From positions 1 to 35,503 of the IMG/VR virus record IMGVR_UViG_3300007276_000137: a stretch of 35,503 nucleotides of DNA; one strand, given 5' to 3'. Below the pieces are notes generated by a model. The model searched no databases and had not been told where the DNA came from. It saw only the letters and a list, made by a program, of their open reading frames with translations. The position numbers and the translations under genes are program-made. The DNA comes from a virus. Shown piece after piece: positions 1-19,579 of the stretch (its first letter is position 1; every line of letters starts with the position of its first letter).

Positions 1-3000
1 GCTCCAACAGAATTATTAGTCCAATTCATAAAGGTGTTTACTAATCTACCACCACCCATTGGTCTATTTCTACCAGTTTCCATACGGTACAACATGTCTT
101 CTAAAGCTTCTCTAAATTTAGAACCATATATAGCTTCTATCTTGTTTAGGTTCTCAGGGGAAAATATAATATCTCTATTTTCTTTCCATTCAGCAAGGAA
201 GTCGGATCTTTTGTCTCCAATAGCGCCATCACTTAATAAATCAGAAGCAATACTTTCGGCTAACCAATAGTCTTTGGGTTGCGAGTAACCGTCATCTTTT
301 TTAGATATTAAACCTATAGCATCTGCATACGCTTGTATCTCTTGATTACCTGTTACAACCTCTGTTAAAGCTTTTAAATCTCTTTTAGATAAACCAGGGA
401 TTTCAAATCCAGCTTTGTTCCAAAGATAAACTCTAGTGGCTTGGTCGTAAGTATAATCCAATCCTTCTATATTTTTATTTAACAGCTTTTTAACTTTAGG
501 AAACTTTTTATTTAAGTTTTCAAAATCATTAGCAGCGGTTTGTCTTGACGAGTTTAATTCATTTATACCTCTAGCAAATGGATCTATTAAAGCCTTTTTA
601 AAGAACGCCATATCAGCTTCTCCTTGTTTTCCTTTGCCTAAAAAGTTGTATAATAATCCTTGAAAATCTTGAGCCGATGCTGGTATTATACTTTTGTATT
701 TAGTTTTTTGACCCCTTAACCTTGCTTGAGCATCAGAAAATTGTTTTTCTGATTTTACACCTGTTGTTTCCTCTATTATATTATTAAAGTCAACATTCAT
801 GTTGCCAGATCTTTTAGCTTGTTGCACTTTTCTTTTAACGTCAAACTGTTCTAACATATTATCAACTGCTTGCACGTTTTGCATTGCATCGTCGGCAAAA
901 TAAAAATCATTATATCCTTCTGCTACTTTATCAGCAACCCACAATGCTTTTGCTTCTGAAGTAGAGTCTCCTAATCCAGTTATATTTTTCAATGGTACAT
1001 TTAAACCGTTTGCTTTCAAAAACTCAAATATAGATTGAGCAGAATCACCTGGTCGAGCTGTTAATACAAACATGTTTTCTGGACCAAACTTATCTTGAAG
1101 TTTTAAAGCTTTATTAAACAATCTAGCAACTTTACCACCTATAACCTGGCTAAACTCTGAAAAATCATGTTTCCAACCTTGATCTAATAAATCAGCTCCT
1201 TCTTTAGCAAACTCTTCTGCGGTTAGTTTTCTAACCACACCATCAGGAGATGTAGATATAACTTCAGACTTGCTAGTAGCTAATGTGTCATCAAAATCTA
1301 ATATAGTAATACCTCTGCTTGGGTTTTGAGATTTTCTAGCTACAGATATAGCTTTATCTAATCTTTTTGCGGTATCTATTTGTTGTGGTGTAGCTATTTT
1401 TAATCTACGTTTTATTTCTTTAATATTTTCTTTATTGAAGAACTTATTATTCATTCTATCTTGCGCACTTTGTCCATCTAATGTTTCAAATGAATTTATA
1501 TCTACAAATTGTTGATCTATTAAAGATATTATTCTAGCGGAACCTAATTCGCTTGTTGTACCAAGTATTTGATCTTGAACAAAAGACAAAGCTTCCGTAC
1601 CTAATGATTGTTCAAACTCAGCGGTAATTTCGTTTGCAATATCGTTAAAATTACCTATATCTTTTTTATCAAAAGCTTTTACAGCTTCAGTAGATATTTT
1701 ACCAAGTTCGCCAGCACTAGGCGTAACATGCTCTCCTTTTTGTCTCAATAACCCACCTTTATAATTTTTTACACCTTTACCACCAAATAGCATGTAAATT
1801 AATTCTTCTTCTAATGCCTGAGGCGTGTCTTCTAACAATCCTTCTTTTTGATATTTTCTAACTCTATCCTCAGCTATAACTCTTGCGGCATTATAATCTG
1901 GATGATTATTATTTGGTCTTATATTTTTAGCGCCTTTTGTCACGGATCCTCTAGAGAAAAAATATTCTGTTTGTACTTTTTTGTTTTTACCTCTACCTCT
2001 TTCAACTTCCGCAATCCACAAGCCTTGAGAACCATCTTGGTACTGAATCAACTCTAACGTGGATAAGGCTCTTTGCCCAGCCGTGTTACTTGTAGCCATT
2101 TGATTATAATAAAGCATACCAACCATCATGCTATTATCAACCATAGCTAGTTCTAAAAACTTATTTTGAATATATGCTAGTAGTTTAGGGTTGTTTTGAT
2201 TAGCACCCTCTATTTCGTCTTTATACTCTTCCCTTACTCTAGCTTTTTTATCGTCAGCTTTTATATCTAAAGATAATACTTTTTGAATTTTACCCATTAA
2301 ACCAATACCAGCATTTATAGTACGAGTTTTAGTTGGATCAAAACCTAATTTACCAGTATTAATTTTGCCATCTGCTAAAGCTTGTTTAGCTTCTTTAATT
2401 TTAGAATCAATAAGATTTCCTAATTCTTTCATAGCATTTTCAGCCTCCTTACTATATTCTCTTTTGCCCTTGCTATTCATATCAAAACCTCTATAACTAC
2501 TATCAAACCCAAAGAATCCTTTTGTTATAGCTGGTGATAAAAATATTTCTAAAGGCAATTCTTCAACTAGGTTCTTCATAGACTTAGCTGATTTTTCTCT
2601 AGCTATATTACCTTTGTTTTTATCAGCTTGAGCGAAAGCTCCTAATGATAAATATTCTTTTATAATTTTTTTAGTTTCTGGTTTTAGCTTTTTGTCTTTC
2701 AACAAACCTTCTAACCTTTCTTTGTATTTAGGTGAGTCTTTACTAAACATATCAGCCAATCCACTTTCTTCAAAAGAAATAATAAACTCTTGTGGTATAC
2801 CTGCTTTTAATATAGCTGCTTCAAACTCTAAAGTACCATAACCATATTTTATAGCTAAATCAACTACTTCAGATCCAAAATCCATTTGTAATCCAGCTGA
2901 TAGATTATAATTACCACTTCGTTTAGTAATACCTCTTTCTGTTTGTCTTACAAATTCTTCAACAAAGTTATTAGCTAATACTCTATCAAATAAATCTTGC

Positions 3001-6000
3001 CTACCAACAAATAAATCTTTAAGATCACCATCATTTATCATGTCAGCCTTAAAGACTTCTAATCCAAATTCTTGAGTTAAAGCGAGTTCTAGTTTTGTTA
3101 AACCACCTCTTCTTATATCAGTCATTGTTTCGCCTTTAGCGAAATTACTTAATAACATTGCTGGTGTTACTTGTTCGTTAGCCTTAGGATTTCTTCTAAT
3201 CTTTTGTTTACCATCAGTCATTCCTTTGTATGGACCTTCCTCACTAGATAACCAAGCTACAATATCACCTGGTTTTTTACCTTTTTTTCTACCTAAATGA
3301 TCTGTAGTATAACCAATGCCTACAACCTTTTTTTCAACAGCCATAGGTAAATTTTTAGATAACCATGTTGTTGTTAATGTTTGTAATATGGCTCTTTTAT
3401 TCTTTGGATTTCTTAAGTATGCTTCAACAGCAGCTGGATTATTACCTATTATTTCTTGTACAACTCTATGTAGAGGACCATGTTTAACCCCAAATTCTTT
3501 TTTAAGAGCAGCTATTAATGGTGTAACAGATCTATTCTTAGAAACAGCTGCGTTTAAATCTGGTAATTTACCACCCACAATAGTTGTTATCGCTGCTCTA
3601 ACAGCATCAACTTGTTCCTGTGTTAATTCTATATTATTTAAAAATGGAGTATTTAATTGATCTTGAACTTCAGGTGTTAATATATCATTGATAGCTTGAT
3701 CTGTCTCTGTAGTTACAATATTTTCAGCTTTAGATACATCTACTTTAAATCCTGTAAAATCAATAGTTGTATCTTTCAAAAACTCAGATAGTCTTTGAGG
3801 TAGTAATCCATTTATATATTTAGATATAGTATTTTCTTCTTGTGTTATTTCACCTGTTTTAGGATCTACAACATCTACCATTTCACCTTCTTTAAAACTA
3901 TCTATAACATCTATGATACCTCTATTACCATACATAGCGTTGGATTTAAAATCAGCTATGTTATTTCTTTTATCTTCTTGACTTACATTGCCATACTCAT
4001 CAACCCGGCCCAAATTAACACCCTTATTTTCTAAACTAGTTAAATATTTTCCAAGCATCGAATCATATAGTTGAGCTATATCGTTTTTCCAATTTGGATT
4101 TGAATCTTTAGCGGCATATAAGTTATTTACTTTTTTACCAGTTTCATTGGCTTGTTCGTGTAATAACGGTGATTTTATATTAGCAGATTTTTTAGCTTCT
4201 TTTAAGCCTTCTTGTTTGGCTTGTTCTTGTTCTCGTTTCTTAGCTGGATCTATTCTTCTTTTTTGTAACTCACCGAGTTTACCTTGTTTGAAGTTATCAA
4301 TATAGCTAGCCATGTAAACAGCAGCGTCTTTACCATTGTTTATTTTATAATCACCATTGAACATAGCTCTAAACTTATTCATCGTGCCTTGTCCTTCGTT
4401 TAGAATTTGTCTTACCTCTGAAGAGTATTTAGGTCTCTTTAATATATCTTGTACAGACTTAGTATATTCATCCCAAAATTGACTATTTTGTTCTTCTAAA
4501 GATTTCTCTGGATTATATTGAGCGTTGCCACCAACAAACCTCATTCTTAACATAGCGGCGTCATGTATGTCTTTATGATTTTCAGACATATAATTATGTA
4601 GATTTTTAGCATAACCTGTTAACTCTTTTAAGTTGGCAAATGTCAACTGATCTACAGCATGTGATATTTCATGTGACAAAACAGTACCTGCTAATATATT
4701 ACCACTTTCAATTTCTCCTAAAGCGGCATTTTTATCTTTAACTATGTATTTATCTCCAATTATAGCCCCATTAGTTTCACCCATCCTAAGTTCATCAATC
4801 ATGCCTTCGGCCTGCATGTCATAATTAGCCTCAATAAAATCTATTTCTTCTTGTTTTTGCTCTTTACTTAAATCTTTTCTTCTATTTACCTCATCAATTT
4901 CTTTCTTCTTTACAGCGTCATAAGCATTTAAAATATTAGTCTGTAAATCTTCATCTGTTTCAGCTATTTTTAAATCTAAATCTTTAAGGTTTATATCTTC
5001 TAATACTAGAGCGGCATTAATATTTTCTTTATTATTTACTATTAAACCAGTATTTTTACTTGTAATACCAAGTTGACCACCAATTCTAGCTAATAACTCA
5101 TCTTCTTTTTTTCTATTTCTTCTTTTTCTACCTGATTCTTCAAATGTCTTACCATTATATATCTGACGTTCCACATACTCTCTAACGCCATCATCTTTCC
5201 TAGCTAATGCCGCTTTATTTTTTTGAAGTTGATTTTTAATCTCTTGATGTACGGCTACAGCTAAAGCTTTAGGATCTTTTGCTAATTCAGGATCTTTTTT
5301 TAATAACCTATCTTTTATTTTTTTACCTTTATCACCATATAATCTTTCTACAGCGTTAGTATAACTTACGCTATTTAATATCTTGTTTTTAGCCTTTAAC
5401 GCGGTATCATATTCAGATCTAAACTTTTTACCCTCAGCTTTACCTAATGATAATGAGTATATGTGGCTTTGTATCTCTTGATCTTCGGGGCTTAACGTTG
5501 GGTCAATATTAGCTTGTTGGTTTAACTGGTTTAATTGATTACCAACTAACACTAGTTTACCAACATTTTCTCCACCCGCTAACATAGCGTTTAGTTCTAA
5601 TTCAGAAGAGAGTCCATACAGCTTGTCCATCTGCTCTTGTCTTTCTTCTGTTAATTGATCTCTTTGGTTTTGATAACCTTTTTTATTAGGATCTAAGTTT
5701 CCAAAATCATTATCTATACGTTTTAACTCTTGCTGAATAGCTATGTTTCGACCATACATATCTCTAGTAACATTATGCTGTGCTATTGTAGAATAAGCTA
5801 TACCAGGACCATTCATAGGACCAGCAACCATTATGGCTGCTATAGCAACGTCGTCTACTTGTGACCAATCAAAATCTTTATTTAGCATCGCGGATTCTAA
5901 TCCCATAGAGCCTAAATAAATTAGTTCTTCCTCGGCTACCTCCATACCAGTTCTGTATACAAACTTACCAAACCCACTAGCTGCGTTTTGATAACCATTC

Positions 6001-8933
6001 CTTGCACCAGCCCTTAAAACGTCATCTAATGGATTTGCAAAGTCATCAACCATTTTAAGTGCGTTTGGCAATGTACCAAGAAATCTAGTTACAGTACCTT
6101 CAATAGCGCCAGTACCAATTATAGTCACCCATTTTTTTAGTGGATCCATGGTACCGTCAGCAATAGTTCTTTCTAAAGCTATTCTACTTTTTCTATATAA
6201 TTCTGGGTCTAATTTATCTTGATTTAAATCTAATTCTTTTAATTGAATTTTTGCTTCGGCAGCGTAATCTTCTAATGTTTGTAGTTCACCTTTTTTACTA
6301 CCAGCGGATGTTATACCATAAAAACCTGGAATAACATTTTGTGCGATAGTAGCGCCTCTAACAGAGCCAAAAATAGTTGTAGCGCCATAAGCACCTAGTA
6401 CAGCAGATGCTATAGGAGCAGATTGCTGTCCCATTGTTCTAGTCATATTGAACAAAAAATTATCACGATTCCAAGCCTCGTCATAAGTTTGCATTGTTTC
6501 TAAATGAGCAGCGTCATAGTCTTGATTTTGATTTTTTCTTTTTAATGCCGCATCACTACCAAATAATATTGGAACGTCAAGCAACATGTTTTCAAAACTA
6601 TGACCAACATCATTTGATAATATGTTTACAAAATCATAATCTCTATCAGCAGCAGACTTTAACTGTAGCGATGGATCGTCTAAAGAAGAGTAATACTCAC
6701 TCCATTTAGTATTTAAATTATTTCTAGTTGTTTCAAAATCCCTTGCTATAATACTTGATCTCTTGCTTATTTTATTGAGTCTAGCTTGGTAATCAGCTTG
6801 TACTTCTGGGGAATTAGCTGTCACTATATAATAACCATCGTTGTCTCCAACTTGATTATACTCTATGTTAGTCACACCGTCACCCCCAGCTGATGCTATT
6901 ATATTATCTATATCTACTTGTAATTCATTTTGTTTTTCATCAAAACTTGGTTTAAAATATTCAGTAGCTTTCTCTAAATCAGCTCTTGTTTTTTCTAACT
7001 CTAACGATGTGGAATAAATACTAGATCGAACAACGTTTTGTAAACCGCTATTCTCCATTTCTTTTTCTAAATAAGTATTATTAATAGAAGCTTTTTTATC
7101 TATCGCGTATTTAGCAATTTTTTTATCTAAACCACCAGCTGTTTGATTCCCATCCCCATCAACATCTGGTTCCTCATATATATTTCCCCAAGCTGTTTGC
7201 ATTGCTGGTAAATACTTTTTTACAAAATCATCAGCGGTATCTCCTCTCATTTCTTGAGAACCATGAAAACTTCTTAAAAATTCTTCTGGATTAAAATTTT
7301 TAATTTTTTCACTTCTAGCTACAGTGTCGTCATCATCATTAAAATAGTCTTTAATAAAATCATGAAAACCCTCAGGCGCAACACTACCAGTATTAAACTC
7401 ACCAAATACATCGTTGGCCAAATTTTTCTCATAATATTCTTTAGCCGCCACATCTTTTGTTACATCCTCTACTTCTTCCTTAGCTTTTTCTTTAGCCGCG
7501 TTATTTAACTCTATAGCTTTCTCATACTGTTTTTTCTGTACTTCTTGGGATTTGGCCTTGTCTAAAGGATTGTCAATAAAATATTTTTTTAATTGAGAAT
7601 TAGTCCCTGTAAAAACTTCTTCTCCACCCACAGTAGCGCTGTATTCAGCGGGAAAAGTTCTTTCCGCGGTACTACTGTAAAACCCGTTTTTAGTTTTAGT
7701 TATCTCGTAACCACTTTCTTTAAATACGTCTAATGCGTCCTGGGATATATTGCCATAATCATCGTCTGAAGCTAAAACACCTATAGTTTTTTTAGTTTCA
7801 TCAGATAAACTATTTTGATAATCAAGTACTCTTTGTATCTTTTCTTTGGCTTCTTCTGCGCCCTTGTCTGTGAATGGTTTTAAATCTATATAAATAGGAT
7901 CTTCACCTGGCAGAGTAACGTTAACAGCGTTACCCATCATTACCCCAAGCTCCTTCACTTCTATACCTGAATTACTAAACTCTTTTGCAAATTGATCGTC
8001 TTTAAGATCTACAAGTTCATTTAAAGTATATTTTGCTTCACGATTTATACCAGTACTAATTTTTTCTTCTTCTGGTATTTCCTCTTCAATAGTTTCTTCA
8101 GTAGTTTCTTCGGTTACTTCTTTAGTTGTCTCTTCAGTTGTTGTTTCTACTTCTTCCGTAGTTTCTACTTCTTCAGTGATTTCGTCCGAAACTGGAAAAA
8201 ATGTATTCATGAAATCACCACCAGACTTACTGTATAGTTTTTTCTTTTTAAGCACTCTAAATAATTCCTGTTGATTTTCTACAGAAGAAAACTGCTCTTC
8301 AAATTTATTGTAATCACCGCTATAAAGATTCTTATTTTTTAAAGCATTAAATAATTGCTCTCTGTAACTAAGTTGTTCTGGCTTAACTTCTTCAACTGGA
8401 GGAGCGGTAGTTTCTTCAACTGGAGGGGTAGTTGTTTCTTCAACTGGAGGGGTGGCGGTTTCTTCTTCACCGGTATATCCAGCATATTCTAAAATAGATC
8501 TTTTAGTTACGTTACCCTCTTCGTTTTGCCAAGGTTCATTTTGATTTGAAATAATACCACCTTTTTCACCTTTAGGAATAATGTCATCCATACCCATGTT
8601 AGCAGCAGCTGGATAAGCTATAGTAATATAAGGATGTTGACCTTTTTTATGGTTCTGAGTAAAATACTTATCAACTAAATCTAACTGATCTATAGCCCCC
8701 ATACTAGATACCTCTTCTATATTTGTACCTAAGCCTTCAGCTGTACCAGGCATGAATTGAATCAAGCCAGTAGCGGAACTTGTGGGGTTTTTAGCTGATG
8801 TATCAAAGTTAGATTCCTTCTGTATAACATTTAATAGCTCTTCCACGGTAAAACCATGCTTGTCAGCTATCTCTTGAAGTTTTTCTTCAACACCATCTAT
8901 TTCAAGAAATTCTTTTTCTAATGTTTTGCTCAT
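1..8933 (-). CDS. Giant polyvalent virion/ejection protein: lytic transglycosylase + HExxH + HAD (3' end beyond window)
   Basis: An uninterrupted frame of 2977 codons starts at the ATG at 8933 and is still open at the left edge, so the C-terminus is missing. Residues 1-130 form an SLT-type lytic transglycosylase: catalytic Glu40 in QKESNFD, GLIQF at 56-60 and IAYPA at 105-109. Residues 159-182 are three PPVEET repeats, 194-245 two similar LY-containing repeats, and about 251-295 a Glu/Thr-rich linker. A hydrophobic stretch lies near 831-868. HEISH (1421-1425) is a zincin-type HExxH motif. Residues near 1870-1960 resemble domains of phage 'polyvalent' proteins. Residues about 2538-2698 carry all HAD motifs. 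It follows two smaller internal-virion-type genes, the position of T7 gp16, so I infer that it is packaged and ejected, cutting peptidoglycan during entry and delivering other activities to the cell. The domain calls are firm for SLT and HAD and weaker for the rest. Confidence 0.85.
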   Translation of the reverse strand, partial: MSKTLEKEFLEIDGVEEKLQEIADKHGFTVEELLNVIQKESNFDTSAKNPTSSATGLIQFMPGTAEGLGTNIEEVSSMGAIDQLDLVDKYFTQNHKKGQHPYITIAYPAAANMGMDDIIPKGEKGGIISNQNEPWQNEEGNVTKRSILEYAGYTGEEETATPPVEETTTPPVEETTAPPVEEVKPEQLSYREQLFNALKNKNLYSGDYNKFEEQFSSVENQQELFRVLKKKKLYSKSGGDFMNTFFPVSDEITEEVETTEEVETTTEETTKEVTEETTEETIEEEIPEEEKISTGINREAKYTLNELVDLKDDQFAKEFSNSGIEVKELGVMMGNAVNVTLPGEDPIYIDLKPFTDKGAEEAKEKIQRVLDYQNSLSDETKKTIGVLASDDDYGNISQDALDVFKESGYEITKTKNGFYSSTAERTFPAEYSATVGGEEVFTGTNSQLKKYFIDNPLDKAKSQEVQKKQYEKAIELNNAAKEKAKEEVEDVTKDVAAKEYYEKNLANDVFGEFNTGSVAPEGFHDFIKDYFNDDDDTVARSEKIKNFNPEEFLRSFHGSQEMRGDTADDFVKKYLPAMQTAWGNIYEEPDVDGDGNQTAGGLDKKIAKYAIDKKASINNTYLEKEMENSGLQNVVRSSIYSTSLELEKTRADLEKATEYFKPSFDEKQNELQVDIDNIIASAGGDGVTNIEYNQVGDNDGYYIVTANSPEVQADYQARLNKISKRSSIIARDFETTRNNLNTKWSEYYSSLDDPSLQLKSAADRDYDFVNILSNDVGHSFENMLLDVPILFGSDAALKRKNQNQDYDAAHLETMQTYDEAWNRDNFLFNMTRTMGQQSAPIASAVLGAYGATTIFGSVRGATIAQNVIPGFYGITSAGSKKGELQTLEDYAAEAKIQLKELDLNQDKLDPELYRKSRIALERTIADGTMDPLKKWVTIIGTGAIEGTVTRFLGTLPNALKMVDDFANPLDDVLRAGARNGYQNAASGFGKFVYRTGMEVAEEELIYLGSMGLESAMLNKDFDWSQVDDVAIAAIMVAGPMNGPGIAYSTIAQHNVTRDMYGRNIAIQQELKRIDNDFGNLDPNKKGYQNQRDQLTEERQEQMDKLYGLSSELELNAMLAGGENVGKLVLVGNQLNQLNQQANIDPTLSPEDQEIQSHIYSLSLGKAEGKKFRSEYDTALKAKNKILNSVSYTNAVERLYGDKGKKIKDRLLKKDPELAKDPKALAVAVHQEIKNQLQKNKAALARKDDGVREYVERQIYNGKTFEESGRKRRNRKKEDELLARIGGQLGITSKNTGLIVNNKENINAALVLEDINLKDLDLKIAETDEDLQTNILNAYDAVKKKEIDEVNRRKDLSKEQKQEEIDFIEANYDMQAEGMIDELRMGETNGAIIGDKYIVKDKNAALGEIESGNILAGTVLSHEISHAVDQLTFANLKELTGYAKNLHNYMSENHKDIHDAAMLRMRFVGGNAQYNPEKSLEEQNSQFWDEYTKSVQDILKRPKYSSEVRQILNEGQGTMNKFRAMFNGDYKINNGKDAAVYMASYIDNFKQGKLGELQKRRIDPAKKREQEQAKQEGLKEAKKSANIKSPLLHEQANETGKKVNNLYAAKDSNPNWKNDIAQLYDSMLGKYLTSLENKGVNLGRVDEYGNVSQEDKRNNIADFKSNAMYGNRGIIDVIDSFKEGEMVDVVDPKTGEITQEENTISKYINGLLPQRLSEFLKDTTIDFTGFKVDVSKAENIVTTETDQAINDILTPEVQDQLNTPFLNNIELTQEQVDAVRAAITTIVGGKLPDLNAAVSKNRSVTPLIAALKKEFGVKHGPLHRVVQEIIGNNPAAVEAYLRNPKNKRAILQTLTTTWLSKNLPMAVEKKVVGIGYTTDHLGRKKGKKPGDIVAWLSSEEGPYKGMTDGKQKIRRNPKANEQVTPAMLLSNFAKGETMTDIRRGGLTKLELALTQEFGLEVFKADMINDGDLKDLFVGRQDLFDRVLANNFVEEFVRQTERGITKRSGNYNLSAGLQMDFGSEVVDLAIKYGYGTLEFEAAILKAGIPQEFIISFEESGLADMFSKDSPKYKERLEGLLKDKKLKPETKKIIKEYLSLGAFAQADKNKGNIAREKSAKSMKNLVEELPLEIFLSPAITKGFFGFDSSYRGFDMNSKGKREYSKEAENAMKELGNLIDSKIKEAKQALADGKINTGKLGFDPTKTRTINAGIGLMGKIQKVLSLDIKADDKKARVREEYKDEIEGANQNNPKLLAYIQNKFLELAMVDNSMMVGMLYYNQMATSNTAGQRALSTLELIQYQDGSQGLWIAEVERGRGKNKKVQTEYFFSRGSVTKGAKNIRPNNNHPDYNAARVIAEDRVRKYQKEGLLEDTPQALEEELIYMLFGGKGVKNYKGGLLRQKGEHVTPSAGELGKISTEAVKAFDKKDIGNFNDIANEITAEFEQSLGTEALSFVQDQILGTTSELGSARIISLIDQQFVDINSFETLDGQSAQDRMNNKFFNKENIKEIKRRLKIATPQQIDTAKRLDKAISVARKSQNPSRGITILDFDDTLATSKSEVISTSPDGVVRKLTAEEFAKEGADLLDQGWKHDFSEFSQVIGGKVARLFNKALKLQDKFGPENMFVLTARPGDSAQSIFEFLKANGLNVPLKNITGLGDSTSEAKALWVADKVAEGYNDFYFADDAMQNVQAVDNMLEQFDVKRKVQQAKRSGNMNVDFNNIIEETTGVKSEKQFSDAQARLRGQKTKYKSIIPASAQDFQGLLYNFLGKGKQGEADMAFFKKALIDPFARGINELNSSRQTAANDFENLNKKFPKVKKLLNKNIEGLDYTYDQATRVYLWNKAGFEIPGLSKRDLKALTEVVTGNQEIQAYADAIGLISKKDDGYSQPKDYWLAESIASDLLSDGAIGDKRSDFLAEWKENRDIIFSPENLNKIEAIYGSKFREALEDMLYRMETGRNRPMGGGRLVNTFMNWTNNSVG
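835..1322 (-). other. HAD-superfamily phosphatase domain of the giant protein
   Basis: All four HAD motifs are present in order. Motif I is ILDFDDTLA (nucleophile Asp2546, acid/base Asp2548), motif II is FVLTARP (Thr2625), motif III is the Lys in SEAKALW (Lys2662), and motif IV is FADD (Asp2681, Asp2682). The spacing fits a small cap. The substrate cannot be predicted; small phosphorylated metabolites, nucleotides or polynucleotide 3'-phosphate are all possible for this superfamily. Confidence 0.82.
4600..4700 (-). other. HExxH (HEISH) putative zincin metallopeptidase motif in the giant protein
   Basis: The residues around 1421-1425 read LSHEISHAVDQ, preceded by a hydrophobic strand (ILAGTV). 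This is the usual zincin context: HExxH in a helix after a strand, with Ala/Val following the second His. The third zinc ligand cannot be assigned by eye. It may be a maturation or host-targeted protease, or an inactive remnant. Confidence 0.6.
8388..8459 (-). repeat. Three tandem 24-bp repeats encoding PPVEET linker units
   Basis: Units at 8388-8411, 8412-8435 and 8436-8459 each begin TTCTTCAACTGGAGG on the plus strand and differ only in the last third. They encode three PPVEE(T/V)-type octapeptides that form a stiff Pro/Glu linker after the transglycosylase domain. A partial further unit (TTCTTC) follows at 8460. The repeat stays in frame, so copy number can change without breaking the gene. 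Confidence 0.9.
8590..8870 (-). other. SLT lytic transglycosylase domain of the giant protein
   Basis: The motif order ES (Glu40-Ser41), GLIQF (56-60) and AxY-like IAYPA (105-109) matches the SLT/Slt70 family, where the Glu is the general acid that cleaves the MurNAc-GlcNAc bond. The domain sits at the extreme N-terminus, as in T7 gp16. It would open the peptidoglycan locally during DNA entry. Domain edges are approximate. Confidence 0.88.
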
Positions 8934-8946
8934 ATTATATTTTAAT

Positions 8947-10344
8947 CTATCCGCCTATATTGTCTATTGAATTATCCGCGTTTGCCGTAACAGCATCATC
9001 ATAATGTGTCTTGGCCTCAAGTTTGTAAAATTCCTTTAGTAATGATTTACCAAGTTCAATATTTTCTCCAGATAAAGCATTTTTAATAAGTTTATCAAGA
9101 TTTTCTTGTGTATTCCAATCATCTTCAGTTAATTTACCATCAGTACCAGTATCTAACTCATTTCTTTCTTCAGCGCTAATACCATCAAGAGCATCCATAA
9201 ACATTGTAAACATTGGTGTTTCTTTAGCACTTGTAAAACCACCCTCGCCGTATTCAATGCCATTTAAACTATCAGCTAATGAACCTTTAGTATTAGAACT
9301 ATGATAAAAAGCAATATCAAGAAATGTATTTTTATCAGTTATCTGTGAATCTACCGATCTATTAATTTCATTTTCAAAATTCCCAAAACCATATTCATAA
9401 TTATTTCTTATTAACTTTGGATCAATAAGAACATCCATCACCTCTCTTTTAGGAGATTTTGGTATGAATAAAGAATCGAGATCTCCTTTTCCTATTGTCA
9501 TATTTTGACCGTCTTTATTTTTAAAAGGTACACCATCCTTATTTACATATGTAAATATCATATTACCTTCGTCATCATAACCTTGAACAGCTCTACCACC
9601 ATCGTACTGAGCTAGGTTTGGATCTTTTTGTGCCACAGGATCTCCGTTTGCTAACATAGCTTGGGCAAAAAGCATTCCCTCCGCATTATACATACCCGAA
9701 GCGCTTGTATTTATATTGTCCTCTGCTAGTTTAGTCTTCATAGTTTCCTGAAAGGCTCCAAAATCAACATTTGATTGTCTTATATTGTCTCGTTTGTTTT
9801 TTAATCTTTGTTTTTCTTTCTTTTTTTCTTCATTAGTCCAAGGTTGCCCAGTGCCTTCGTTTATTGCATTCTTTTTCCACCAAGCGAGATCGGTTAGTTG
9901 CGTTCTTATATCGCGAAGCGTATCCTCTGTAGTCATAGGTTTTATAGCTTTTTCGTTACCATTATTATCAAAGTATGTAAATCTTTGCTCTGCTGGCACG
10001 TCTTCAATTTCTCCTGTTTTAGGATTTCTAGCTTTTACCATTCCAGATGTATTATCTGGGTTTACACCGCTCGTGTATTTTGAGTCAAAGTCTTTAATAG
10101 CATCGTTATTCCACTCAGGTTTTGAATCTTGTTTTGCGCTTTTTATTAGATCAGCACCTATATCACTCACTACTTTAATAGCTTTACCCCACATTTCACC
10201 TCTAGCCTTCGCCTCTTTGGCATAAGCCCCGCTGATACGTTCGTGAACACCACTAAGATCTTTAGGTACATTAGCTTTTGCCGCTTTCGTTGCCGCGCTA
10301 ACTAAATTTGCATCAGCACTACCTGATATATTTGAAATTGCCAT
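8947..10344 (-). CDS. Internal virion (ejection) protein, T7 gp15-position
   Basis: The open frame extends to 10410, but I chose the ATG at 10344 (MAISNISG). The upstream extension overlaps the preceding gene by 50 bases, is hydrophobic and unlike the rest, and the 10344 start has the AT-only leader and ATGGCA context seen at other starts here. The product has 465 residues, is hydrophilic, and has an Ala/Lys-rich helical N-terminus (about 1-75) and long charged stretches. Residues 398-409 form an EF-hand-like loop (DTGTDGKLTEDD). No catalytic motif is visible. It lies between a gp14-like gene and the giant transglycosylase protein, so an ejectosome role is inferred from position. I do not recognise a named family. 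Confidence 0.75.
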   Translation of the reverse strand: MAISNISGSADANLVSAATKAAKANVPKDLSGVHERISGAYAKEAKARGEMWGKAIKVVSDIGADLIKSAKQDSKPEWNNDAIKDFDSKYTSGVNPDNTSGMVKARNPKTGEIEDVPAEQRFTYFDNNGNEKAIKPMTTEDTLRDIRTQLTDLAWWKKNAINEGTGQPWTNEEKKKEKQRLKNKRDNIRQSNVDFGAFQETMKTKLAEDNINTSASGMYNAEGMLFAQAMLANGDPVAQKDPNLAQYDGGRAVQGYDDEGNMIFTYVNKDGVPFKNKDGQNMTIGKGDLDSLFIPKSPKREVMDVLIDPKLIRNNYEYGFGNFENEINRSVDSQITDKNTFLDIAFYHSSNTKGSLADSLNGIEYGEGGFTSAKETPMFTMFMDALDGISAEERNELDTGTDGKLTEDDWNTQENLDKLIKNALSGENIELGKSLLKEFYKLEAKTHYDDAVTANADNSIDNIGG

Positions 10345-10360
10345 ATTTATATTTGTTTTA

Positions 10361-11008
10361 TTAAAGTTTTGGAATAAAAGAAGTTGCTGTGTCAACAAAA
10401 TCACCAGCAATCTTCATATTTGCCGCACGATTTGCCGCTTTCATTTCCATATTTGCAGCTACAGCACTTTGTTGATTAGCAAACCCTGTTTGCACTTGTT
10501 CTCTAGCGCCTGCTAATTCACCATAGTCCATTCCCAATAGAGTTGATACTCTCCCGCTTTCAGCTTGTTGAACCATAGCATCGCCTTGTCTTTCTAAAGA
10601 TTGAACATCTCCAGCACCCTGTGCTATTAATTTTTGATTTGCCGCTTCTTGCTGCCCAATAGAAGCTGATATTTGTTGGGTTTGTAATTGACCTTGATTT
10701 GCCATAGCTTGCGCTAAGCCAGCTATACCAGAACCACCAGCAGCGCCTTTTAAATTTTGCATTATATCCGCTCTTTGCTGCATACCCTGTTGGGCTTGAA
10801 ATTGAGCTTGCTGTTGGTTAACAGTTAAATCTTCATATACATTTTCCATTCCAGCGTAAGGATTTTCAAACTGAAAACTTTCATATGCAGCACGAGATTC
10901 TTGAACGGCTGCTTGAGCCTGTTTCTCTGCCTCTCGCCCTTGCCTTAGTTGCTTGTCAGCAATGCCCCTCATATCATCATACATTCTTTCTCTACTTTTT
11001 TGTCCCAT
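10361..11008 (-). CDS. Internal virion protein, T7 gp14-like (Gln/Ala-rich)
   Basis: The product has 215 residues: a charged N-terminal helix rich in Arg, Lys, Glu and Gln (MGQKSRERMYDDM...), then long Gln/Ala/Met-rich low-complexity segments (QQQAQFQAQQGMQQ at about 65-78) and a Gly/Ala segment (GAAGGSGIAGLAQAM). This composition is typical of small internal virion proteins that form the outer-membrane part of the ejection channel in short-tailed phages. It starts 9 bases after the acetyltransferase stop and is followed by the gp15-position gene and then the transglycosylase gene, the same order as in T7. The function is inferred from composition and order. No enzyme motif is seen. Confidence 0.72.
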   Translation of the reverse strand: MGQKSRERMYDDMRGIADKQLRQGREAEKQAQAAVQESRAAYESFQFENPYAGMENVYEDLTVNQQQAQFQAQQGMQQRADIMQNLKGAAGGSGIAGLAQAMANQGQLQTQQISASIGQQEAANQKLIAQGAGDVQSLERQGDAMVQQAESGRVSTLLGMDYGELAGAREQVQTGFANQQSAVAANMEMKAANRAANMKIAGDFVDTATSFIPKL

Positions 11009-11017
11009 AATTATCTT

Positions 11018-11440
11018 TTATATATATTTAAATGCCTCGTGTTCTACGGGGATCATTGTCCAGTCTAAATTTTTATGTATATTAGACATGTGTGGATCTC
11101 CACAGACTGTAAATAATTGAGATACACCATATTTTTTAGCCTCTTCACTTGTTTTTTCTATCAAAAGTTCTATTAACTTTCTCCTATCTTTTTCTCTATA
11201 CTTTGGATTAGATACTAAGTTTGTTATCCAAGCTAGACGTTTCACATCTAATGACAAAAATAAAAAAACACAAGCAACAGGGGTATTATTTTTTTCTATT
11301 ATATAACATCTTTCATTTTTAGGTAACCAGTCTCTTTCTATGCCCTTTCCTCCGAATGATTTATCCCACCATTCCCACCACTTGCAACAAGTTTCATAGT
11401 CACCGTTTTTGAAAGATCTAAATTTTATATTATCTTCCAT
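11018..11440 (-). CDS. GNAT-type N-acetyltransferase, phage virion-module variety
   Basis: The product has 140 residues with a GNAT-like pattern: N-terminal helix and Trp-rich segment (CCKWWEWWDKS), strand IIEKNNTPVACVFLFL, strand LAWITNLVSNPKYR followed by a helix (motif A region, about 70-100), strand QLFTVC and a final IHKNLDW...FKYI segment. The usual R/QxxGxG/A acetyl-CoA loop is degenerate here (YREKDRRK), so the donor site may be altered. Similar small acetyltransferases recur between tail and internal-virion genes of marine phages, and their substrate is unknown to me. The leader before the ATG consists of repeated AAATT units. Confidence 0.72.
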   Translation of the reverse strand: MEDNIKFRSFKNGDYETCCKWWEWWDKSFGGKGIERDWLPKNERCYIIEKNNTPVACVFLFLSLDVKRLAWITNLVSNPKYREKDRRKLIELLIEKTSEEAKKYGVSQLFTVCGDPHMSNIHKNLDWTMIPVEHEAFKYI

Positions 11441-14439: not shown

Positions 14440-16989
14440 CTATAAAAATTTTCTATAGATAATTAAACCACGCAGTGGAGTGCCTATCTCTGTTTTTAGG
14501 CTGCATACTACTCCTGACAGATATTTCCTTGAAAGAGCTGTAAAATCTCCAGGCCAAGTACTATCGCATTCACTAGAGGTCCAAAAATAGTAATTACTAT
14601 CTGCTGGGCCGGCAGGAAAAAGGCCAGGATAAAGTATAGTTCCACCCCCTGGGAAAATTAGTGGGAATTCATTATAAGCGGGTAAATACCAATCACTATA
14701 ACCATTAATAGTAGCCGTACTGGCAGCGTAAGCTGCTTCTGCATTTGCTCCATCTTGAGCTACAATTAAAGCAGTATTATTAGCACCGTCATCCAAGTCG
14801 GTGCCACAGTCGTTATCTATAGAGCTCCAATTAAAGCCCGTTTGGCCAATATGATTTCCGTAATTAAAACCTACAGTACCACCATCGGTTTCATCTATAC
14901 CATTGTTAAATTCTAATATATAACCGCCTTCGTAAAAATCACCTAATTGTAAGGCAAAAGTACACGAACCATCATCCCAAGAAGCTGTAGAGTCGTAATT
15001 TGTGGCCGTGGAATCCGTACAACCAAAGTTTCCTTCGTATACAACAGGGATAGCACGTGTTTGGGATTGGAAATTGTTTTTGATTCGCGTTTTTATAGTT
15101 CCATCCCACCAAGAGATTGTGGTGTACCTATTAATTGGATCATTATCAGCCTCGTTACTAGTCATGTATTGTATAATAAGACCACTGTCAAGATCACATT
15201 TAGTAGAAAATGCCCCCCACCCCGTACCTGGGTAAAATGGGCTACTATAGCAATTCTCACTCGTAGCGTTCATTCCCCCAAAACTGGTACTAGGGCAATT
15301 ATAATTTGAACCTGGTCCAAGGTTATTCCACACAGCAAAAAGTTCATCTACAGAAGGTATGTGCCAATCAGCCGTGCCAACTTCGCTTTGAAACTCAGTG
15401 CTCTTTGCCCAGAAAGCCGGGCTTTCGTTGTGGTAAGAACTCCAACCCGAGCCCCATGGACACTGTACGCCAATCGCGTTCGCAGTCGAACCACCAGTGG
15501 CTAGCATATCTTCAGTGTTTTGATATCCCCAACCGGCTTTCTGTGACTGAGCGCTAGATAAATTACCACTTGGATTCGATCCTGGCACCAACGCCTCATC
15601 GCCCCAATTTGTTGGAAAAACCGGTCCCATGCCAGATTGAATATATGTACAGGTTGTAGATTGTGACACAGCCATCTCCACAGTTTTAATAGAGGCATAC
15701 ATTCTTCCACAATCACCCGTTGCCATACCTGAATCAGGTTCGTCATATGAAAACATTGCTAATCTTGCTGAAAGCGTAGGGTGAAGATCACCTATAGTGT
15801 ATGTAACCCCACTTAAATCCGTGCACGTTGGCGTTGGGTCTGGATAAGTACATGAACCATCGTCTACTGTGGCGTTTGGATCATAATTACATGCTGTACT
15901 GTCTGTACAACCATGTAACGTTAAACAAGAACCATCATCACATGTAGCTAATGGATCATACTCTACATACCCAACTGTTGTACAACCATCAACACAACAC
16001 GAACCATCGTCTACAGTAGCCGTGGGATCATAATTTGAAACTGAAGCATCTGTACAACCCGGAGTATTAGCGGTTAAGCAATAAGAACCATCATCACAAG
16101 TATAACTTGCGTCATATTCTAAATACCCAGCTGTCATGCAACCATCAATACAACAAGAGCCATCATCTACTTGTGTTTCATTAGCAGCTGGTGTTCCCAT
16201 CCAGTTAGACACTGTTGGATCTGTACAGCCATACACCGTGTAAACACAACTTCCATCATCTTGTGTGCTAACCGGATCGTAGTTATCTGCTGTTGCGTCA
16301 GTACATCCGTATACAACTGTATAAGTACAAGAGCCATCATCTTGATTTGCCGTAGGATCGTAGTTATCCGCTATTGGATTAGTGCAACCTAGAATAGTAG
16401 TAACACATTCCATGCTTGAGCCTGGCTGAGCTTGGTAGTTTGCTAATGGATTATAATTTATATCTCCCGAAGTAGTACATCCAACTATAACCGGCTCGCA
16501 ACAACAATTAGTTCCAGTTTGTGACCCAAAACAACCGGGTCCATTTGTATCATCACAAGGAGCTGTAAATCCAGAATCTGAGTTCCAGTAAATTGGGTAA
16601 GGAAACAGAGATCCATCTCCTATTAAAGCTGTGGTTGTTACCGTGCAACCATAAGTAGTTAAAGTTAAACAATCAGCTGGATTTGAAACGTTATAAATAG
16701 CGTCATATTCTAAATAATCAGAATCCATACAACCAACATATAGACAACTACCATCGTCAACAGTTACACTGGCGTTATAATTAGCCGCAGATGGATCTGT
16801 ACAACCAGTAATCCCATAAACACATGAACCATCATCCCACGTAGCATTGACATTGTAATTAGTAGCCGTATTATCTGTACAACCTGGAATTCCTGAACCT
16901 AAATTATAAGTGCTAACTAAATTACCCAACCCCTGGAAAGAAGAGTCGGCATTATCAAAGCCACCTATGCCAAAATTACTTATTGCCAT
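14440..16989 (-). CDS. Adhesin/receptor-binding protein A: Cys-rich DDGSC repeats plus two Lcl/DUF1566-type domains
   Basis: The product has 849 residues. After an N-terminal docking segment (FDNADSSFQGLGNL, 11-24), residues about 36-380 hold 12 Cys-bounded repeats of the GCTDxTAxNYxPxAxxDDGSC type, several degenerate, plus a shared Cys-rich insert ending CCCEP. Residues about 395-650 are a divergent Lcl-like domain (ADWHIPSVDELF). A 13th repeat leads to a second Lcl/DUF1566 domain (681-849; YEGGYILEF, GYSDWYLPAYNEF, YFWTSSE, PLRGLIIYRKF). Such domains adopt a C-type-lectin-like fold and bind ligands, while the repeats probably form a disulphide or Ca-stabilised stalk. It is the paralogue of the next upstream gene with the same domain order, so the two look like alternative host-receptor binders. 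The phage role is inferred; the domain reading is strong. Confidence 0.85.
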   Translation of the reverse strand: MAISNFGIGGFDNADSSFQGLGNLVSTYNLGSGIPGCTDNTATNYNVNATWDDGSCVYGITGCTDPSAANYNASVTVDDGSCLYVGCMDSDYLEYDAIYNVSNPADCLTLTTYGCTVTTTALIGDGSLFPYPIYWNSDSGFTAPCDDTNGPGCFGSQTGTNCCCEPVIVGCTTSGDINYNPLANYQAQPGSSMECVTTILGCTNPIADNYDPTANQDDGSCTYTVVYGCTDATADNYDPVSTQDDGSCVYTVYGCTDPTVSNWMGTPAANETQVDDGSCCIDGCMTAGYLEYDASYTCDDGSYCLTANTPGCTDASVSNYDPTATVDDGSCCVDGCTTVGYVEYDPLATCDDGSCLTLHGCTDSTACNYDPNATVDDGSCTYPDPTPTCTDLSGVTYTIGDLHPTLSARLAMFSYDEPDSGMATGDCGRMYASIKTVEMAVSQSTTCTYIQSGMGPVFPTNWGDEALVPGSNPSGNLSSAQSQKAGWGYQNTEDMLATGGSTANAIGVQCPWGSGWSSYHNESPAFWAKSTEFQSEVGTADWHIPSVDELFAVWNNLGPGSNYNCPSTSFGGMNATSENCYSSPFYPGTGWGAFSTKCDLDSGLIIQYMTSNEADNDPINRYTTISWWDGTIKTRIKNNFQSQTRAIPVVYEGNFGCTDSTATNYDSTASWDDGSCTFALQLGDFYEGGYILEFNNGIDETDGGTVGFNYGNHIGQTGFNWSSIDNDCGTDLDDGANNTALIVAQDGANAEAAYAASTATINGYSDWYLPAYNEFPLIFPGGGTILYPGLFPAGPADSNYYFWTSSECDSTWPGDFTALSRKYLSGVVCSLKTEIGTPLRGLIIYRKFL
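15849..16884 (-). repeat. Protein-level repeat array (12 DDGSC units) in adhesin A
   Basis: Twelve coding repeats of about 20-35 residues each start at GC(T/M) and end at (D/E)DGSC or a shorter Cys end. They diverge at the nucleotide level and are not identical DNA repeats. A 13th unit sits between the two lectin-like domains near 14950-15025. Confidence 0.9.
16918..16959 (-). other. Conserved N-terminal docking peptide of adhesin A
   Basis: This encodes FDNADSSFQGLGNL, identical in protein to the segment at 19505-19546 in adhesin B, yet 7 of 14 codons differ, all synonymously. It is likely the shared attachment point to the tail. Confidence 0.7.
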
Positions 16990-17044: not shown

Positions 17045-19579
17045 TTAGAATTCCCTAACGGCTTTTGCATTAATTGGGTTAGTGTTTCCTATAATATTTC
17101 CCGTGTCCGCCAGCTTGCCTTCGACCAAGGTGGAAATAGCTGAATAGTTAGCATCTGGAATGCAAACATATGCAGAAATGACAGGATCAGTAGGATTTTC
17201 TGTAGAAGTCCAATAATTTGCGTTTAAATTAATATTTGCGTTAGTAACAACGGCTTCAGAAAGCATTGCCGTTGCAAGCTCCATTGTTGAAGGTAAAAAC
17301 CAATCAGCGTAACCATCATTAGTATAATCATTGGCATAGCTAGCGGCCTTAGCGTCAGCGCCATCACTATCAATAATCAAATCGGTATTAGTTTGACCAG
17401 TTCCAATTGCAGTATTAGCCGATGTGCCACAATTATTAAAAGATGTATTATTCCATACGGTTTCCTCTAGCTCGTCTTGCGATATGATATAACCACCACC
17501 CGTTATGTCAGTATTATTGTTAAGATAAAATATTATACCTCCTTGATAGTAATCACCTACCCCTAAAAGTGTTGTGCAAGAACCATCATCCCAAACAGCG
17601 TTTGGATCATAATCTGAATATATAGCATCCGTACACCCAGCAACACCTTCTCTTCTTATACCTCTAACGGTTTTTAGAGCGTCTTTATCGCTAGCGCTAA
17701 TAATGGAAGTGGAAAAATCAACGTGACTCGTATCATCAACCCCCGATTCAGTAGAAGACCAGTACGTGTCGCTAATAGATGGATTATCCACCATCTCAGC
17801 TGGATCTGTAAAGCAAAACAAATTATTCTGTCCGAGGTTTTGGTCAATCGTAAATAACTCGTTTATAGAAGGTAAATACCAATCTGAAAAACCACCACTT
17901 GTAGTATTATCAATACTATACGCTGCATTAGGTACGCAACCCATGGGAGCATTATCTACTATATCTCGCGAGTTTTGGTACCCTGAACCTATAGCAGTTG
18001 TCAATTGACCAGCGCTATTATAACCAGTAGGGAAAAACTCTCCACAGCTGTTATTATTGTGCCAAGCTGTTGAATATATTGGTGGGACAGGATCTACAAT
18101 TAAAGCGCCACAAAGAGTACCCACATCTGAATTTGTAACCTGGTCTAAATGAAATATTATACCACCTTGGTAGGTATCACCTATTGATATAGTGTTTCCT
18201 ACCACTCCAGCTGCATCTATAAACGTACAAGACTCGGGGTCAGCGCCATAACAACAACTACCGTCTTCATAGTTAGCTGTAGGGTCGTAGTTATTGGCTG
18301 GGCCTACCCATGATACTGGTCTACCAGTATAGTTAGGATCTGTACCGTCATCCATACACCCAGGCACTCCTAAAGTAACACATTGATCACTATTAGGATC
18401 ACAAGTATAACTTGCATCGTACTCTAGATATGCTGAATTAGTACAACCAATAAGACCCGAACAAGAGCCATCATCACAAGTAGCTAAAGGATTATAATTA
18501 CAAGATGTAGAATCCATACATCCTAAAAGACCACTACATGAACCATCATCACATGTAGCTAAAGCATTATAATTACAAGCCGTAGGATCTGTACAACCAT
18601 CAATACAACAAGAGCTATCATCTGTAGTAGCATAATAATTAAGACCATCAACTGGATGAAGGAAAACACTATAATTAGATGCTGTAGGGTCCGTACAACC
18701 CGTGTAAGTACATAAACCATCATCATTAGTAGCCGTATCGTCGTAGTTGTCAGCCGCTGGATCCATGCATCCTGGGTAAACACAACTACCATCCTCAACT
18801 TGAGTTACGTTAGATGGTGGCGCTCCCATGTAGTTAGAAGCTGTTGGATCAGTACACCCGTAAGCGGTGTAAGTACAAGAACCATCATCTACATTAGCCG
18901 CAGCGTTGTAGTTGTCAGCCATAGGATCTGTACATCCATAACTTGTAGCAATGCAAGCAAGATCAGAACCTGGGTATGGCTGGAAATTAGCGGTTGAATC
19001 ATAATTAATAGCCGTAGCATCTGTACAGCCTACGATAGTTGTTTCACAGCAGCAATTAGCAGTTCCATTAGGAATACCACCAACACAATCATCACTAGCA
19101 CCGGGTTGAGTTCCATCACAAGGCACTTGGCCAGCGATAGTATTTCCATTCCAGTACAATGGATATAACAAATTACTTGTGTTATTATCACCTATATTTA
19201 TAGTTGTTACAATAGTACAACCATAGGTGATTAGTGTTAGGCAATATGTATTGCCAGGGTTGTTATTTGCAGGTGGCACTTGGCTAGCATCATACTCTAA
19301 ATACAACGGATTATCACAACCATTATATAAACACGTGCCATTATCTACATTAGCAGCTGGGTCGTAACCTCCGCTTGCATTTGGATCCGTACATCCATAA
19401 ACAACCGGAACACAGCTACCATCGTCTTGAGTTGCATTTGGATTGTAATTAAATGAACCAGGCGTAGTACATCCCAATATAATTCCAAGTGGACCTGTAG
19501 TAATTAGATTTCCCAATCCTTGAAAAGAAGAATCAGCATTATCAAAAGAATCTTTGCCAAAACTATTTATTGTTGCCAC
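17045..19579 (-). CDS. Adhesin/receptor-binding protein B: Cys-rich DDGSC repeats plus two Lcl/DUF1566-type domains
   Basis: The product has 844 residues and starts at a GTG (19579) that lies 13 bases inside the end of the muzzle gene, which suggests translational coupling. The docking peptide FDNADSSFQGLGNL is at 12-25. Residues about 36-455 carry 13 Cys-rich repeats (for example GCTDPMADNYNAAANVDDGS), with the same atypical third, fourth and fifth units and CCCE insert as adhesin A. Lcl/DUF1566 domain 1 covers about 461-645 (YQGGIIFHL, GFSDWYLPSINELF, YWSSTESG, VRGIRREG). Another repeat follows, then Lcl domain 2 at about 672-844 (YQGGIIFYL, GYADWFLPSTMEL, YWTSTE, AKAVREF). This is a stalk with two lectin-like heads and probably binds a surface glycan or protein. 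Its first lectin domain is closer to consensus than that of adhesin A. Confidence 0.86.
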   Translation of the reverse strand: MATINSFGKDSFDNADSSFQGLGNLITTGPLGIILGCTTPGSFNYNPNATQDDGSCVPVVYGCTDPNASGGYDPAANVDNGTCLYNGCDNPLYLEYDASQVPPANNNPGNTYCLTLITYGCTIVTTINIGDNNTSNLLYPLYWNGNTIAGQVPCDGTQPGASDDCVGGIPNGTANCCCETTIVGCTDATAINYDSTANFQPYPGSDLACIATSYGCTDPMADNYNAAANVDDGSCTYTAYGCTDPTASNYMGAPPSNVTQVEDGSCVYPGCMDPAADNYDDTATNDDGLCTYTGCTDPTASNYSVFLHPVDGLNYYATTDDSSCCIDGCTDPTACNYNALATCDDGSCSGLLGCMDSTSCNYNPLATCDDGSCSGLIGCTNSAYLEYDASYTCDPNSDQCVTLGVPGCMDDGTDPNYTGRPVSWVGPANNYDPTANYEDGSCCYGADPESCTFIDAAGVVGNTISIGDTYQGGIIFHLDQVTNSDVGTLCGALIVDPVPPIYSTAWHNNNSCGEFFPTGYNSAGQLTTAIGSGYQNSRDIVDNAPMGCVPNAAYSIDNTTSGGFSDWYLPSINELFTIDQNLGQNNLFCFTDPAEMVDNPSISDTYWSSTESGVDDTSHVDFSTSIISASDKDALKTVRGIRREGVAGCTDAIYSDYDPNAVWDDGSCTTLLGVGDYYQGGIIFYLNNNTDITGGGYIISQDELEETVWNNTSFNNCGTSANTAIGTGQTNTDLIIDSDGADAKAASYANDYTNDGYADWFLPSTMELATAMLSEAVVTNANINLNANYWTSTENPTDPVISAYVCIPDANYSAISTLVEGKLADTGNIIGNTNPINAKAVREF
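18254..19474 (-). repeat. Protein-level repeat array (13 DDGSC units) in adhesin B
   Basis: Thirteen coding repeats starting GC(T/M/D) and mostly ending DDGSC, plus one more near 17570-17635 between the lectin-like domains. Unit-by-unit peculiarities (YLEYDA unit, CCCE insert, the long unit with a xNxTQVxDGSC ending) match adhesin A in the same order. Confidence 0.9.
19505..19546 (-). other. Conserved N-terminal docking peptide of adhesin B
   Basis: Encodes FDNADSSFQGLGNL, the same 14 residues as in adhesin A (16918-16959), with seven synonymous differences and no amino-acid change. The flanking residues differ. Confidence 0.7.

Follow-up and report, generated by a model that had tools for sequence, protein, structure and literature searches.

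In the survey of polyvalent proteins by Iyer et al., the polyvalent MPTases are defined by an HExxH motif and a Glu, and a profile search led from them to lethal factor, of zincin type (PMC5512222). Among podoviruses, crAss001 gives a structural precedent for cargo that is stored and extruded (PMC10172136), and the phages Calle and Gundel are podoviral as well (PMC8776804). Giant proteins that end the virion gene cluster are annotated as structural in the cultured phages elemoE (gp18), phi38:1 (gp101), phi19:3 (gp129) and phi13:2 (gp127), labels that could stem from similarity transfer. Gundel_1 gp74, also annotated structural, sits before its terminase, and the phi46:3 counterpart is annotated as hypothetical. 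No virion data on these counterpart giants were found in the literature searched.

The window, which is the whole 35,503-base virus record analysed here, contains a giant of this kind (Table 1). The sequence-only reading had described a single frame open at the edge, and the frame indeed reaches the contig edge with no stop. The residues named in that reading are all exactly placed, namely E40, HEISH (1421-1425), DFDDT (2546-2550), LTARP from 2624 (T2625), K2662 and FADD from 2679 (D2681/D2682). By chance, a protein with this composition would be expected to contain 0.014 HExxH and 0.12 DxD[DG]T motifs. Complete giants among the relatives have about 2030 to 3830 residues and stop some 850-950 residues past DFDDT; therefore, about 440 C-terminal residues are probably missing from the window giant. 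Its chain carries disparate enzymatic domains (SLT, zincin-like and HAD) in a late, structural gene context, and this combination supports the proposed placement among polyvalent proteins. The identities of the three domains, their conservation and the kept gene position are supported and form the established part of our reading.

Table 1. Features of the window; residue k of the giant starts at base 8933-3(k-1).
Feature	Coordinates	Strand	Details and basis
Giant polyvalent protein gene	3..8933	-	2977 codons; 3' end cut by contig edge
N-terminal lytic transglycosylase (SLT) module	8484..8933	-	Residues 1-150; catalytic Glu40 at 8814-8816; Pfam, PDB, L197 homology
Zincin-like metallopeptidase domain	4176..5063	-	Residues 1291-1586; HEISH at 4659-4673; alignment, profile, model
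Probable third zincin ligand, Glu1489	4467-4469	-	Invariant Glu in alignment of relatives
HAD phosphatase-like domain	834..1316	-	Residues 2540-2700; conservation, model, structural matches
HAD motifs	1284-1298 (DFDDT), 1059-1061 (Thr2625), 948-950 (Lys2662), 888-893 (Asp2681/2682)	-	
C-terminal module	3..833	-	Conserved, mainly helical, truncated in window; alignment, model
Gene just upstream of giant	8947..10410	-	487 codons; ATG at codon 23 likelier start than TTG
Gln/Ala-rich protein, internal-virion type	10361..11008	-	215 aa; homologues 43-62% identity
Acetyltransferase-like gene	11018-11440		Within virion cluster
Two long repeat proteins	14440-16989, 17045-19579		Arrays of Cys-containing 'GCTDPxAxNYDPxATxDDGSC' repeats

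Relatives were recovered only with short domain queries, a pattern search with the whole protein having yielded none. The HAD region, searched against viral contigs, yielded 565 relatives, 80 of which were kept. A second search, with the alignment of the HAD and C-terminal regions as query, kept 80 of 471 and gave 52 further distinct giants. Together, these place a core of zincin, HAD and C-terminal module in more than 130 uncultured marine viral contigs, where the giant is last in the virion gene cluster. Conservation along the giants is strong in the HAD and the C-terminal module (2531 to the end), while everything before is diverged, with a mean identity of 8% for the N-termini overall. The C-terminal module of the complete relative L010 contains hydrophobic segments. 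In terms of isolated phages, tblastn in 50,697 phage records gave no match to the HAD region and none of note to the HEISH region.

Pfam returned no match for the HEISH and HAD regions of the window giant, and both domains were recovered through its relatives. Across 15 proteins, a further 12 (seven of them HAD giants) and 78 N-termini, Pfam found nothing consistent except DUF5763 tails. These lie at the C-termini of 6 of the 15 complete giants (best 2.2e-8; residues 3386-3417 in L002). One family member has an LPD14 match. PADLOC and Rfam gave no matches. Several virus fragments (L125-L132) were binned in metagenome-assembled genomes (MAGs) of Maricaulis, Woesearchaeota, Ilumatobacteraceae, Aliivibrio and Bacteroidetes, probably by misbinning. 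A prophage or host link through such contigs was considered and dropped, these being fragments only; because they scatter over unrelated taxa, we claim no host from them.

Conservation in the giants peaks in the HAD. D2546, D2548, T2625, K2662, D2681 and D2682, which make up HAD motifs I-IV, do not vary in any of the 141 proteins compared; finding the domain relied on the DxDxT match but not on the T, K and DD. The dN/dS of the HAD against the two nearest relatives is 0.08-0.09, a rough value as dS is saturated. Foldseek alone found nothing significant for the predicted model (pLDDT 80, pTM 0.55), and the VIA comparison of model residues 34-205 returned mainly HAD enzymes (Z 7.4-10.4), with a Rossmann-like HAD fold. 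The HAD domain claimed from sequence is supported by its six catalytic residues and these structural matches, which point to a phosphatase-like domain with presumed catalytic activity.

The zincin-like domain claimed at HEISH is also supported. In an alignment of 73 relatives with a mean column identity of 15%, the only invariant residues are the H, E and H of the motif and a Glu 67 residues past the motif E, which was not a selection criterion for the alignment. In its numbering and that of the model (A3), these are H131, E132, H135 and E199, and the Glu is on the helix (194-208) that follows the motif helix (125-141), as expected for a zincin. Among the 77 first-set relatives with the region in frame, 73 have HExxH and four have HDxxH at the same place. 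A profile built from this set matches 48 of the 52 second-set giants (E 1e-20 to 1e-81), and every matched region contains H[ED]xxH; the remaining four comprise two truncated upstream and two in which HExxH stands where expected. Several MAG contigs match the profile too.

The AlphaFold (AF2) model of this region is compact (pLDDT 82, pTM 0.78), with a beta-hairpin, the HExxH helix and the Glu-bearing helix. Its top VIA match is lethal factor residues 57-263, the only listed match to span the whole domain, at a Z of 7.4 that falls in the range a chance arrangement can produce. Foldseek gave nothing significant in PDB or BFVD, the top BFVD row being an elemoC structural protein (E 0.29). Searches of PDB sequences with the zincin and HAD regions, both as single sequences and as profiles, returned only noise. 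The zincin dN/dS against the two nearest relatives is 0.34-0.49, again rough with dS saturated. The conserved residues support a zincin-like metallopeptidase domain, for which the model suggests a zincin-like fold; peptidase activity is presumed.

The SLT is the only domain of the window giant that sequence databases recognise, and the claim that it is real stands. Pfam assigns PF01464 at 2.5e-7 (30.7 bits against a cut-off of 21.3), with E40 within IQKESNF; the PDB sequence search finds one lytic transglycosidase (9udh, 1.3e-10), and PHROGs places the region with baseplate-hub and transglycosylase families. The combination of three domains, noted as worth describing, is present in the window giant but atypical of its family. 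The zincin-HAD core is widespread, while the SLT occurs in 2 of 128 giants, the window giant and L197, the only carrier among the 127 relatives whose N-terminus is complete (homologous to the window SLT, 5e-39). The next-nearest copies are in proteins of about 800 residues, on contigs with no HAD giant. By sequence comparison, the SLT is an optional N-terminal module, and the system can do without it, since nearly all relatives lack it.

In relatives, the HAD has an insertion site at the tip of a beta-hairpin just after motif I. In six (L128, L129, L148, L186, L220 and L221), the insert there measures about 200-240 residues and has the signature of a P-loop kinase. The four inserts run against Pfam (L128, L148, L186 and L221) match AAA_33 (4.6e-17 to 1.8e-8) and Zeta_toxin, and those of L129 and L220 were assigned to the kinase by evident similarity. 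In L202, the insert at the same site has a weak ART-PolyVal match (0.0016, under the curated cut-off); with the single LPD14 match, it may weakly tie the giants to polyvalent proteins.

Extra domains of about 140-370 residues are found between the HAD and the C-terminal module of L059, L072 and L132, flanked by a repeat of the linker at the HAD end. Giants L002-L081 contain 172 copies of [FY]S[KRQ][SAGN], clustered immediately on either side of the HAD, against 51 in shuffles, a count that shared ancestry inflates. This concentration could mark a processing or a recombination border. FS[KR]S was not retained as a cleavage motif beyond an idea; it is enriched in the family, but the window giant lacks it at its own HAD borders.

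The giant was said to follow two internal-virion-type genes, and it does come directly after two small genes of virion type, closing the structural cluster. Most relatives examined have homologues of the 215-aa protein upstream of the giant and a gene of about 330-620 codons just upstream of it; the usual order is the 215-aa-type gene, the gene of about 330-620 codons and, last in the cluster, the giant. The terminase, portal and capsid genes of the window are of flavophage type, the closest terminase being that of MW202828 (63%). The acetyltransferase-like gene has a matching position in MW202828 and L126, and relatives of the repeat-protein genes sit downstream of the giant in other contigs.

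As for the cultured flavophages, the zincin of the elemoE giant is homologous to that of the family (hhalign 94.6%, 6.8e-8), and the HEFGH regions of the Gundel and MW202828 giants match it less surely (30-80%). The MW202828 giant (L082, 741-12320; 3859 aa) has two HEFGH motifs, the second fitting the zincin profile better (80% vs 30%). No HAD was found in the cultured flavophage giants by the profiles used.

We consider it fairly likely that the giant is a large polyvalent protein from a podovirus of flavophage type, packaged and ejected with the DNA, bearing SLT, zincin and HAD phosphatase actions. Packaging in the virion is probable. Together with ejection and action before phage gene expression, we infer it from synteny with the giants annotated as structural in cultured flavophages; the catalytic activities, the substrates and the order of events are likewise our inference. 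The giant would be made late and packaged in the head, then ejected with the DNA and probably ahead of it. The N-terminal SLT would exit first and open the peptidoglycan, and the helical C-terminal module may be an anchor in the head or part of a trans-envelope conduit. The zincin may cut the giant into separate domains, at assembly or after entry, or cut a host protein. A freed HAD would be an active Mg-dependent phosphatase in the newly infected cell, with a nucleic-acid end or a nucleotide as its most plausible substrate.

Other explanations touch single parts of this proposal. The zincin could serve as an effector against a host protein, cleaving it after entry while the giant remains one chain, which we regard as possible but rather unlikely. 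Polyvalent MPTases have been proposed as effectors too (PMC5512222), and the zincin is more diverged than the HAD, as an arms race would lead one to expect; however, its central place in nearly all members and the clustering of FS[KR]S-type motifs at the HAD borders suit self-processing, though shared ancestry inflates the motif count and the window giant lacks the motif there. It is improbable that the giant serves assembly only, as a scaffold or in head completion, with the HAD active in the dying producer cell and nothing injected. The late position in the structural cluster says only that the giant is made late, but a peptidoglycan-cutting N-terminus on a large, cargo-like chain fits ejection, and podoviruses carry such cargo, as in crAss001. 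That an error in contig assembly joined the SLT to the giant is very hard to credit. None of 78 first-set relatives has it, including the nearest, L002, yet the reading frame of the window giant is continuous and L197, an independent contig, has the homologous SLT at the same N-terminus.

In the case of the HAD, the alternative is a polynucleotide 3'-end-healing phosphatase of the T4 Pnkp type, delivered with the genome, which would mend phage DNA ends or the host tRNAs that defence nucleases cut; a kinase insert would make a relative a complete kinase-phosphatase. Pnkp1 (10.1) and T4 Pnkp (10.0) are among the top VIA matches, but the LNS2 domain of Nir2 scores equally (10.4) and many HADs lie within 2-3 Z. 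By hhalign, the HAD aligns with 11 phage Pnkp-type phosphatases at 89.8% (1.8e-6; unrelated pairs 0.2-1.3%) and with T4 Pnkp alone at 22%, against 0.1-0.3% for E. coli GmhB and SerB, two single proteins that are the only controls of this kind. One member has a weak match to TIGR01664 (DNA 3'-Pase). The AAA_33/zeta-type kinase lies within the HAD at six loci, but it matches zeta toxin as well, and an ART-like domain occupies the same site; the kinase, too, may simply be an inserted effector. The link to Pnkp phosphatases is suggestive only, and we find this alternative unlikely. More doubtful is the broader conjecture that a clade of uncultured marine phages delivers a nucleic-acid end-healing phosphatase whose loop is a swappable cargo site (kinase, ADP-ribosyltransferase), with some members kinase-phosphatases and the resident zincin freeing the modules.

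If the giant is packaged, these phages would eject a phosphatase, an enzyme class unnamed in the main text of the polyvalent survey (PMC5512222). The HAD is under stronger constraint than the rest of the giants across a large group of uncultured marine phages. A conserved core, a swappable N-terminus and a loop that accepts effectors would make a natural experiment in the refitting of phage entry proteins, and the link to the cultured elemo phages puts the virion question within experimental reach.

Compared with known systems, the giant resembles the large polyvalent proteins that phages and conjugative elements encode (Iyer, Burroughs and Aravind 2017, PMC5512222) in its giant multidomain chain, its central zincin MPTase with HExxH and Glu, its optional lysozyme or transglycosylase domain and its late structural context. 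An ART-PolyVal-like insert and LPD14 are shared as well, each in a single member here. That class is known; what the literature searched does not contain is a HAD core with an insertion site, and the words haloacid and phosphatase are absent from the survey's main text. The giants of Flavobacterium elemoE (gp18), Cellulophaga phi38:1 (gp101) and Tenacibaculum Gundel_1 (gp74) have the same place in the gene cluster, that of elemoE with a homologous zincin and that of Gundel with a weakly homologous C-terminus (3.8e-7), but the profiles used match neither a HAD nor an SLT in them. The N4-type virion RNA polymerase of Schitoviridae is also a giant enzyme carried in the virion and has a zincin domain (PMC5512222), whereas the window giant has no RNA polymerase domain recognised by Pfam or PHROGs. 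Finally, T4 polynucleotide kinase/phosphatase shares the HAD fold and, with six relatives, the presence of kinase and HAD on one chain; in these the kinase is inserted in the HAD and not ahead of it, and the HAD of the window giant has no kinase.
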